Below the pieces are notes generated by a model, which worked only from the letters and a program-made list of their open reading frames with translations, was not told the DNA's origin and made no database searches. Below are positions 48,975 to 52,385 of a stretch of 64,000 nt of DNA, piece by piece (the first letter of the stretch is position 1; every line of letters begins with the position of its first letter). A program made the translations under genes and the position numbers. Origin of the DNA: Verrucomicrobiia bacterium (GTDB lineage: Bacteria; Verrucomicrobiota; Verrucomicrobiia; Limisphaerales; JAEYXS01); the NCBI GenBank assembly GCA_036405135.1, contig DASWYF010000002.1, positions 1 to 64,000 on the forward strand, written 5' to 3'.

Positions 48975-51161
48975 GTGTCTGAGCAGGAGTTGCTTTCCCT
49001 ATTAAAGCAGTACTTCGGTTACACCGCCTTTCGTCCGCAGCAAGCGGGGATCATCCGTGATTCGTTGGCGGGTCGCGATGTATTTGCCCTGCTGCCGACA
49101 GGTGGTGGCAAGTCACTCTGCTACCAGTTACCTGCACTAGCGCGCAATGGCCTCACCGTTGTCATCTCGCCGCTCATCGCCTTGATGAAAGATCAGGTGG
49201 ATGCGCTGACCACGGCAGGTGTCCCGGCCACGTTCCTGAATTCTTCCATCACCAATGCCGAAGGTGGCGCACGTTTGCGCAAGTTGAACGATGGTGATTA
49301 CAAGCTCCTGTATGTCGCGCCGGAACGTCTGATGCTGCCCGGCTTCATCGATTCACTGAAGCGTTGGAAGACGGCTCTGGTGGCGGTGGATGAGGCGCAT
49401 TGCATCAGTGAATGGGGACATGATTTTCGTCCTGAGTATCGTCAGCTCGCGACTTTGCGTAGTCGCTTGCCCGATGTGCCGATGATGGCGCTCACAGCTA
49501 CGGCCACGGATCGGGTGCGGTCAGACATCGTCAATCAGTTGCACCTGCGCGATCCGGCGGTGTATGTCGCGAGTTTCAATCGACCGAACCTGAATTACCG
49601 CATCGTGCCGAAGTCGAAAGCGTATGCGCAGTTGCTGGAGTTCCTGCGAGCGCGGAAGGATGAGAGCGGTATTGTGTATTGCCAGGCACGCGCGACGACG
49701 GAGAAGCTGGCCGCACAATTACGTTTTGATGGCATCCCGGCGGCGCACTATCACGGGCAGATGGAGGCGGAGGAGCGGGCGAAGAATCAGGAGAAGTTTT
49801 TGCGTGATGAGGTGCGGGTGATTTGCGCGACCATCGCCTTCGGCATGGGCATCAACAAACCGAACGTGCGCTTCGTGGTGCATCACGATCTGCCGAAGAA
49901 CATCGAGAGTTATTACCAGGAGACGGGCCGTGCGGGGCGCGATGGGTTGCCCTCGGATTGTCTGCTGCTTTTCAGCGTGGGCGATGAGATGAAGCAAAAG
50001 AAATTCATCTCTGAGAAACCAAGTGAAGAAGAGCAGCGGGTCGCACTGGAACAACTCGCTCTGATGACCCATTACGCGGAAAGCAGCGAGTGTCGGCGTG
50101 TAGTCTTGTTGCGTTATTTTAGCGAGAAATTCACGGAAGAAAATTGTGGTGCTTGCGATAACTGCCTGGCACCGCGTGAAAAATTCGATGGCACGGTGGC
50201 AGCGCAGAAGTTCATGTCGTGCGTGTTTCGCATGAAACAGAAAAGCGGCATCACCTTTGGGTTGAATCAGGTGGTGGAAGTGTTGACCGGGGCGGAGACA
50301 GAGAATGTGCGGCGGTGGGGGCATGATACATTATCCACGTATGGCATCGGGAAAGAGCATAGCCGAACAGATTGGCAGGGCATCGGCCGCGAATTGATGC
50401 GGATGGGCTTAGTGCGGCAGTTGACGGGGCAATTCATGACTTTGGATCTTGCGGCAGAAGGTGTGATGGCGCTCAAAGAGCGCAAAGCCATCACACTCAC
50501 GCGACAGATGGAAGCGCCGGTGGTGAAGAAGGTGAAGCCTGGCCAGATCCAGTGCGATGAAGGCTTGTTCGATGTGTTGCGCGATCTGCGTCGCAAGTTG
50601 GCCGAGGAACGGGGTGTGCCGAGTTACATCATCTTCGGCGATACGTCGTTGCGTGAGATGGCGCGAAGCTATCCGGTGAGCAGCGATGAGTTTGCCAATA
50701 TCTCCGGCGTAGGTGCGAAGAAGTTGGCGGAGTTCTGCGAGGTGTTCTGCGAGGCTATCCGTAATCACCTGAAGAATAATCCCCGCCAGATGTTTGCCGG
50801 TGGGAATACGGGACAACTTATCCGCAAGATGCAGCGGGATTTGAATCCGGAAACGTTGGGTGATTCGCACTTTGTTTCGCTAAAGATGTTTCGCGGAGGT
50901 CGCACCTTGGAAGAGATCGCCCGGGAGCGGAAAATCGCCGTGGGCACCGTGGCGACGCATCTGGCGAAGGCGATTGAATTGGGTGAGCCGGTGGATATTG
51001 AGAAGCTGGTGCCGAAGAAGAAGCATGCGGCTATTTTGCAGGCGTTTGATCAGTGCGGCTTGGAATCGCTCGGGCCGGTGAAGGATAAATTGGGTGAGGG
51101 ATATGATTATCCCGAGCTGCACATCATGCGGGCAGCGGCGCGGAGCGGGCAGGTGAGTTAG
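48975..51161 (+). CDS. recQ: ATP-dependent DNA helicase RecQ
   Basis: A 728-residue superfamily 2 helicase with a GTG start. Walker A TGGGKS (42-47), motif II DEAHCISEWGHDFRPEY, helicase C with TIAFGMGINKPNVRFVVH and ETGRAGRDG, and a zinc-binding RQC region (CRRVVLLRYFSEKF, then CGACDNC) are in order. HRDC follows (about 515-600). A C-terminal 100-residue extension has the helix-turn-helix-like KIAVGTVATHLAKAIELG, as in Bacillus-type RecQ. It unwinds structured DNA during recombination and fork repair. Directly downstream lies the seven-hairpin block. Confidence 0.95.
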   Translation: MSEQELLSLLKQYFGYTAFRPQQAGIIRDSLAGRDVFALLPTGGGKSLCYQLPALARNGLTVVISPLIALMKDQVDALTTAGVPATFLNSSITNAEGGARLRKLNDGDYKLLYVAPERLMLPGFIDSLKRWKTALVAVDEAHCISEWGHDFRPEYRQLATLRSRLPDVPMMALTATATDRVRSDIVNQLHLRDPAVYVASFNRPNLNYRIVPKSKAYAQLLEFLRARKDESGIVYCQARATTEKLAAQLRFDGIPAAHYHGQMEAEERAKNQEKFLRDEVRVICATIAFGMGINKPNVRFVVHHDLPKNIESYYQETGRAGRDGLPSDCLLLFSVGDEMKQKKFISEKPSEEEQRVALEQLALMTHYAESSECRRVVLLRYFSEKFTEENCGACDNCLAPREKFDGTVAAQKFMSCVFRMKQKSGITFGLNQVVEVLTGAETENVRRWGHDTLSTYGIGKEHSRTDWQGIGRELMRMGLVRQLTGQFMTLDLAAEGVMALKERKAITLTRQMEAPVVKKVKPGQIQCDEGLFDVLRDLRRKLAEERGVPSYIIFGDTSLREMARSYPVSSDEFANISGVGAKKLAEFCEVFCEAIRNHLKNNPRQMFAGGNTGQLIRKMQRDLNPETLGDSHFVSLKMFRGGRTLEEIARERKIAVGTVATHLAKAIELGEPVDIEKLVPKKKHAAILQAFDQCGLESLGPVKDKLGEGYDYPELHIMRAAARSGQVS

Positions 51162-51198
51162 ATTTGTCGTTAATCTAGCCGATAGGGCAAAGCAGTTT

Positions 51199-51432
51199 GC
51201 TCGCGTTAGCGAGCGTGAGATTCATAGGCACGGGTGTTAACCCGTGCTGGAGGTCAAAAAGAAATAGCGTCACGTAGTGACGCAAGATTTCCCAGAGCGG
51301 TAATGAAGTTCTTTCGTCGCTATGCGACGATGGGTTTCAGAGGGCTATACAGCGGCTTGAAAGCCGCTGCTATGAATCTTTTGTGCCTAATGGCACAGCT
51401 ACCGAAATAGCATGCGCCGACTAATGTCGGCG
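51199..51432. repeat. Cluster of seven different perfect hairpins
   Basis: Seven perfect inverted repeats with 6-8 bp stems and 3-4 nt loops lie one after another: 51199-51214, 51228-51247, 51267-51283, 51314-51330, 51350-51369, 51382-51397 and 51415-51432. The stems differ (GCTCGC, GCACGGGT, GCGTCAC, TCGTCGC, CAGCGGCT, TGTGCC, CGCCGAC). Loops are GTTA twice, GTA, TAT, TGAA and TAAT twice. It lies between the convergent recQ and zinc-module genes. Confidence 0.85.
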
Positions 51433-51449
51433 GCTACAGAATAAGGAGT

Positions 51450-52385
51450 TTACCGTCCCCAACCAGACCTAGCTTTGCGGGCCTTCTCATCACTGCGGCG
51501 TTTGGTGTTCTGGCAGAGGCGGCATCTAGGCTCGAAATAGGTGTGGCCGGATTTCAGTTCCGAGCTGCGCCAGAATTCTTTGGTGAGCGGCCAGTCTTTC
51601 CAGCACGCGATGCAGCGTTTCTCTTTGGGCGGATGCTTTAAGGCGCGCACGTCCTCCGCGCGTTCATTTAAGGTGCGGGCCAAGCGTTCCGTGCGGGGAT
51701 GTGCGCGGTCACCGCTATCTTCATGATGGCGATTGGCGGCGGCGCAGAGACGGCAGGTATAGAGATAGTAGACCTTGCTGGAGCCGTTGTGTTGCGTGGC
51801 GGCGAAAAACTCCGGCGTCAGCGGCCACGTTTCTTTGCATTGTTCACAGCAGCGTTTGGCGTGCTTGGGGGATTCGCGGAGCAATTGCACCTTATGCGCT
51901 TTCAGTTCCTGCTCATGTTCCTTGGCTTTTTCCTTGGCCCAGGCGGAGACGCGTTTGGAAACTTCGGCACGATACTCAGGATTGTGAAAGCGGGAGAGGG
52001 GATGGGCGGCAGTCGCGGCCCAAGAGCGTTGGATGCCCAACTGTTTTAAGGTGCGACGCACCCAAGAAATGGTGACGCCGAACTTTTCAGCGACGACTTG
52101 CACCGGCACATCGGCACCATTGCGACGAAGGTATTCCGTGGCCTGACGGCGGGATTCCAGTGGTACGGAAGCGCCGCGTTGATGGGCTTTCCGTGCACGT
52201 TCGGAGTTTTCCGGGCTCGCGAGATGCATGCGGCGGATCTGTTGGGCGATGGCATCGACGGAGCGGACGCCATGGCCATTCGCCGAGAAGCAGCCGAGGC
52301 GATGAATCGACAGCGGACCGTGACCCGCTTTGACGAGGTCAGCGAGTTTTTCTTTGTCTTCAGAGGTCCAATTTACGCCAGGCAT
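51450..52385 (-). CDS. HTH protein with two duplicated zinc-ribbon-like modules
   Basis: A 311-residue protein. The N-terminus resembles a Myb/SANT helix set (WTSEDKEKLADLVKAGHG, SVDAIAQQIRRMHLA). A HTH follows at about 95-130 (VQVVAEKFGVTISWVRRTLKQLG). The C-terminal half holds two copies of a module: CCEQCKETWPLTPEFF.. TCRLC and CIACWKDWPLTKEFW.. RCRLC, each C-x2-C, WPLT-x-EF, C-x2-C. A DNA-binding role is likely. The family is not recognised. The start ATG is at 52385. Confidence 0.65.
   Translation of the reverse strand: MPGVNWTSEDKEKLADLVKAGHGPLSIHRLGCFSANGHGVRSVDAIAQQIRRMHLASPENSERARKAHQRGASVPLESRRQATEYLRRNGADVPVQVVAEKFGVTISWVRRTLKQLGIQRSWAATAAHPLSRFHNPEYRAEVSKRVSAWAKEKAKEHEQELKAHKVQLLRESPKHAKRCCEQCKETWPLTPEFFAATQHNGSSKVYYLYTCRLCAAANRHHEDSGDRAHPRTERLARTLNERAEDVRALKHPPKEKRCIACWKDWPLTKEFWRSSELKSGHTYFEPRCRLCQNTKRRSDEKARKARSGWGR

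Follow-up and report, generated by a model that had tools for sequence, protein, structure and literature searches.

The window analysed here, a stretch of 64,000 nucleotides from a Verrucomicrobiia bacterium, carries a recQ gene on the forward strand (48975-51161; NCBIfam recQ, 749.8 bits) and, convergent with it on the right, a reverse-strand open reading frame of 311 amino acids (51450-52385) that matches nothing in Pfam or NCBIfam and keeps its place beside recQ in the congener G001. A first-pass annotation had described seven different perfect hairpins in 234 bp between these convergent genes, and both the setting and the hairpins hold: when all seven stems in 51199-51432 are read, every coordinate and every pairing is borne out. 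Its further description, stems of 6-8 bp with short loops, suits six of them; the fifth has a 9-bp stem and a 2-nt loop.

By RNA folding the region is far more stable than shuffled sequence on both strands (z = -8.8 on the forward strand and -8.2 on the reverse). Under a uniform rule (stem of at least 6 bp with at least 4 G/C, loop of 2-4 nt) it holds seven hairpins, the next densest place elsewhere in the 64 kb window holding two, and each of 10,000 simulated 234-nt Markov-1 sequences gave between zero and three. The probability of a chance cluster of palindromes, which the annotation had already doubted, is therefore practically nil, refuted by these counts and by the many copies of the arms in the genome.

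Architecture of the six-hairpin unit

The first six hairpins, H1 to H6, form a single unit (51199-51398) of two inverted arms with three hairpins each. The arm design is H1 (6 bp), the foot AGATTCNTAG, H2 (9 bp), a spacer, H3 (7 bp) and AAGA, and the copies in the genome show the full unit to be an arm, a variable centre and then an arm in reverse. The left arm (51199-51287, forward strand) runs H1, a linker ending in AGATTCATAG, H2, spacer, H3 and AAGA, an order that is fixed in 83 arms, and it matches our R1 arm model over 51198-51287 with 78.3 bits. On the forward strand, H1 (GCTCGC-gtta-GCGAGC, 51199-51214), the counterpart of which in G001 reads CCTCGC..GCGAGG, is separated by the conserved foot AGATTCATAG (51218-51227; consensus AGATTC.TAG in most of the 83 arms) from H2 (GCACGGGT-gtta-ACCCGTGC, 51228-51247). 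There follow a spacer (51248-51266), of which the length (mostly 17-20 nt) is kept and the sequence is not, H3 (GCGTCAC-gta-GTGACGC, 51267-51283), which on the reverse strand is followed by the terminator-like TATTTCTTTT, and the conserved foot AAGA (51284-51287), with G at 95% and A at 98% at its positions 3 and 4.

The right arm (51310-51398, reverse strand) is the genome's best R1 match, at 95.2 bits, and is inverted, reading H6, foot, H5, spacer, H4 and AAGA. In forward-strand coordinates it comprises H4 (TCGTCGC-tat-GCGACGA, 51314-51330), H5 (CAGCGGCTT-ga-AAGCCGCTG, 51350-51369), which in G001 is CGGCGGCTT..AAGCCGCCG, a compensated change, the foot CTATGAATCTTT (51370-51381), which mirrors the left foot, and H6 (TGTGCC-taat-GGCACA, 51382-51397). 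Across arms the loops and feet are conserved while the stems vary. The canonical REP foot GT[AG]G is absent from H1-H6, which have a consensus ending in CNTAG at H2 and AAGA at H1 and H3; some relatives within the order have the arm design with a GGTAG foot at H2.

H7 lies on the reverse strand (GTAGC CGCCGAC-atta-GTCGGCG, 51415-51437; hairpin proper 51415-51432, with a 7-bp stem read as CGCCGAC with loop taat on the forward strand). We rejected it as a part of the unit because it belongs to another family, with copies dispersed elsewhere in the genome, and because it is absent from G001, where the same six hairpins follow recQ. With its GTAG foot, short stem and dispersed extragenic copies, H7 is an independent REP beside the unit. 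It shares the foot, a short perfect stem, a 4-nt loop and dispersal with the GTAG-tagged REPs (PMC3733652) and is unlike them in that at none of the eight Y1 loci found does it flank a cognate transposase gene. The annotation's row of seven is thus one unit of six and a seventh hairpin of a different repeat family, and its suggestion of small palindromes inserted into one another, right in spirit for H7, does not suit H1-H6, with their fixed order in dozens of copies.

Dispersed copies and a transposase-bearing element

Searching the window's own genome (G000) with the region, as the annotation had proposed, returned many partial and several full-length relatives in which the hairpin order is kept. 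The three-hairpin arm model finds about 57 arms in this genome and 29 in one and 6 in the other of two congeners, G001 and G002 being the congeners compared here; of 37 further genomes of the order that were searched, 7 give matches, all of them weak. One copy (locus L044, 2226-2906) consists of an arm, a Y1 (HUH) transposase gene and an inverted arm, with three hairpins on each side and stems that are identical at the two ends. The stems at the two ends of short copies are usually unlike, perhaps owing to the instability of a long perfect inverted repeat; identical end stems occur in 1 of 69 comparisons, against about 10 expected from shuffled pairs, a count on which we do not lean because the copies share ancestry.

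The L044 protein, of 150 amino acids, is a distant relative of the solved IS200/IS605 transposases. It passes the models NF033573 (IS200/IS605; 80.3 bits, cut-off 55) and PF01797 (97.8 bits, cut-off 23) and fails the REP-transposase model NF047646 (26.4 bits, cut-off 80); in place of the Y---NP motif of the REPtron or TnpA_REP enzymes (class 2) it reads YIHGQ. TnpA_Y1 subclass 1.2 is defined by DH[IV]H, WQ and Y---Q--HH (PMC6006769), and the motifs DHVH, WQ and YIHGQREHH, the last of these being the Y---Q--HH signature, place the protein in that subclass, by motif and not by tree. The subclass is described as generally lacking terminal hairpins (PMC6006769); here three flank each side of the gene. 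Paired hairpin arms, with stem sequences that differ from gene to gene, also enclose other Y1 genes of the genome, and Y---Q--HH is found in the five of these whose motif was read, as well as in relatives from other phyla. An Acidobacteria relative has three hairpins on either side. A related transposase gene is present in 37 of 58 sampled genomes of the order, in a few divergent copies each, and several of the relatives inspected there, though not all, have clear hairpin arms. The G001 copy of the transposase, 79% identical, also lies between arms, at another place; the transposase search was run without G002, so no enzyme is known for the arms of that genome.

In view of the L044 copy, in which a Y1 gene stands between two sets of three hairpins, we read the short copies as MITE-like derivatives: 51199-51398 is, very probably, a non-autonomous copy of an element that carries an IS200-like Y1 gene between inverted three-hairpin arms. 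Its ends are shared with the autonomous copy at L044, and its family has both occupied and empty sites, two G000 insertions being absent from G002. The observed basis of this reading is the arms, their multiplicity, the gene-enclosing copy, the empty sites, the covariation and the sharing between species; the short copies are linked to the L044 transposase solely by their shared ends, and their usually unlike end stems tell against the reading. Transposition, mobilisation in trans and any host role of the element are what we infer from sequence; neither a transposition event nor an excised circle nor an exact junction was among the observations.

As a mechanism, the arms may fold while the DNA is single-stranded, probably in the course of replication, and the transposase would recognise the loops (GTTA- or GTA-like), the feet (AGATTCNTAG and AAGA) and the hairpin geometry. 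Stems would then need only to pair, and so could drift by paired changes; the enzyme would cut and join near the feet and may in this way have spread the short form. Work on the TnpA_REP enzymes of group 3 found the loop positions to be critical, swapped stems to be tolerated for the most part and mismatches to do harm (PMC8266576), and conserved loops and feet with variable, paired stems may, by analogy, be the pattern that such reading leaves.

Several further arrangements and repeats were seen around copies. At L056 (1400-1840; contig C47 of G000, about 73800-74240) the H2 of a copy is interrupted by an unrelated insert of ~190 bp with inverted ends (agagcgtttttag...), an arrangement of nested mobile elements, and a similar end sequence lies beside a copy in L071. 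Three separate single arms in one orientation lie within 1.4 kb at L063 (1070-1158, 1358-1445 and 2338-2423), two of the three with the stem GCATGGGTT, and at L187 (1104-1868; G021, C140) four or more three-hairpin arms, ~200 bp apart, form an array beside a related transposase gene. Another dispersed repeat, with GTAGGGCTGGCTGTCC (L043, 2150-2370 and 2990-3090), has many copies in G001 and G002 and is not clearly linked to the Y1 loci, and a third, around TTCCAATGCCC/ATTGGA (L046, 11130-11240; L006, 2007-2056), has many copies in the congeners and also adjoins the Y1 gene in L006. The repeats near copies (L043 at 2167 and 3026, L046 at 11130) were rejected as products of the same transposase, as they do not match its ends; one of the L043 and L046 repeats resembles sequence beside another Y1 gene, that of L006.

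Covariation, conservation and genomic position

Across 83 arms from the three genomes, 97.6% of stem cells are paired and in 348 cells both sides have changed, giving a covariation score of 0.495 against 0.139 when shuffled and 0.02-0.08 when slid. This alignment was fitted to structure; 37 arms aligned by MAFFT with no reference to structure score 0.449. The stem covariation that the annotation proposed to look for across relatives is therefore present, and the lack of other copies and of covariation in relatives, which it had named as telling against its reading, is not what was found. Its suggestion of compensatory change under RNA-structure selection divides accordingly: the compensation is real, and the RNA part is not indicated. 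Read over both strands, the mispaired cells of the 83 arms comprise 21 G-T, 20 A-C and 23 others; with G-T and A-C equally rare, selection specific to RNA leaves no sign here. The arms come from both strands, so more weight falls on the strand-resolved count, which in tandem gene contexts stands at 7 G-U to 5 A-C for the transcribed strand; it has 12 cases only and, small as it is, offers no hint of selection on RNA.

The copies are also placed unevenly with respect to genes. By simple open reading frame calling, gaps between convergent genes are enriched among those with copies (18/38 against 35/144 gaps, p = 0.009) and gaps between divergent genes are depleted (2/38 against 39/144, p = 0.004). 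Such a position at gene 3' ends, together with strong folding on both strands and stem covariation, would suit a structured RNA or a 3'-UTR RNA element kept by selection on RNA pairing. We consider this improbable, given the balance of G-U and A-C mispairs (few as the strand-resolved cases are), the dispersal of copies at unrelated genes, the empty sites and the transposase-bearing copy, and given that an Rfam search of the region gave no family match at E <= 1. A single-stranded DNA substrate fits the data better than RNA selection.

About seven G000 sites have, by flanking similarity, a counterpart in G001 or G002; in the L042/L164 and L055/L156 comparisons the flank match is weaker and starts some hundreds of bases off. 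Of the 264 stem pairs in 12 arm pairs at these shared sites, 250 have not changed, 4 are compensated and 10 are changed on one side. The stem bases differ by about 3.4%, an underestimate because the comparison is biased to copies still recognised by the arm model and misses those too decayed for it. The spacers are scrambled, about 60% identical after alignment, and 117 of 240 recQ fourfold sites (49%) have changed. These figures bear on the view that mutation bias alone keeps the pairing, template switching in the palindrome copying one arm onto the other. The excess of 348 paired changes over about 64 half-changed cells across all copies is what such a process would give; nevertheless it has little chance of being right, since the stem bases themselves are conserved at shared sites (~3% of them altered, as against 49% of fourfold sites), the loops and feet are conserved too, and half-changed pairs exceed compensated ones there (10 against 4).

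At this distance between congeners one would not expect hairpins to persist if they were neutral. The low stem divergence beside near-saturated fourfold sites and scrambled spacers points to an old recQ copy, the hairpins of which are held by selection in place, and this in turn suggests a secondary role, for example as a boundary or as a weak terminator acting in both directions at the 3' ends of genes. It is possible, on the weaker side of even, that the once-mobile elements have become, for the host, two-way terminators of transcription or blocks at mRNA 3' ends and that their hairpins are conserved in place for this reason; such a role would be an addition to the MITE-like origin and not its opposite. 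The conservation of stems at shared sites, the convergent enrichment with divergent depletion, and a mild bias in the spacer, which is T-richer after H2 and A-richer before H3 than its own shuffles by 6-7 sd, all favour it. Against it, terminator-like T tails follow only 15 of 83 H2 and 13 of 83 H3 hairpins, a minority, on account of which we rejected a canonical terminator, and promoter damage would also produce the divergent depletion.

Relation to known mobile hairpins

The MITE-like unit resembles the REP, BIME and REPIN systems with their TnpA_REP (RAYT) enzymes (PMC2817692, PMC3116915, PMC3733652) in its dispersed extragenic hairpins, their inverted pairing and a related Y1 transposase that has these hairpins on its flanks; in REPIN hairpins, too, compensatory changes have been noted (PMC3116915). 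It differs in having three hairpins per arm, in its feet ([AT]TAG and AAGA, against GT[AG]G) and in a transposase that is not of the Y---NP class. With TnpA_Y1 subclass 1.2, reported mainly in Cyanobacteria and Bacteroidetes (PMC6006769), the IS200/IS605-type protein shares its short length, DHVH, WQ and Y---Q--HH, and a low and divergent copy number, whereas here the gene has arms of three hairpins and a short form that is dispersed. Class 3, known from Acidobacteria and Planctomycetes (PMC6006769), is similar in the atypical structures that flank the gene and in its dispersed copies; its Y----Q motif and CnGA foot were not found here.

We propose, tentatively and as something that may well prove wrong, that subclass 1.2 as a whole, although described as generally hairpin-free, reads a three-hairpin arm by loop, foot and geometry and not by stem sequence, and that the short elements have been adopted by the host as selected structural marks of 3' ends. 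The subclass 1.2 Y1 proteins, described without a hairpin substrate, thereby gain a concrete candidate DNA substrate. Furthermore, stems that exchange freely while loops and feet stay constant represent a natural mutagenesis set for the recognition of single-stranded hairpins by HUH enzymes, and the shared sites permit the takeover of bacterial mobile hairpins by their hosts to be tested.
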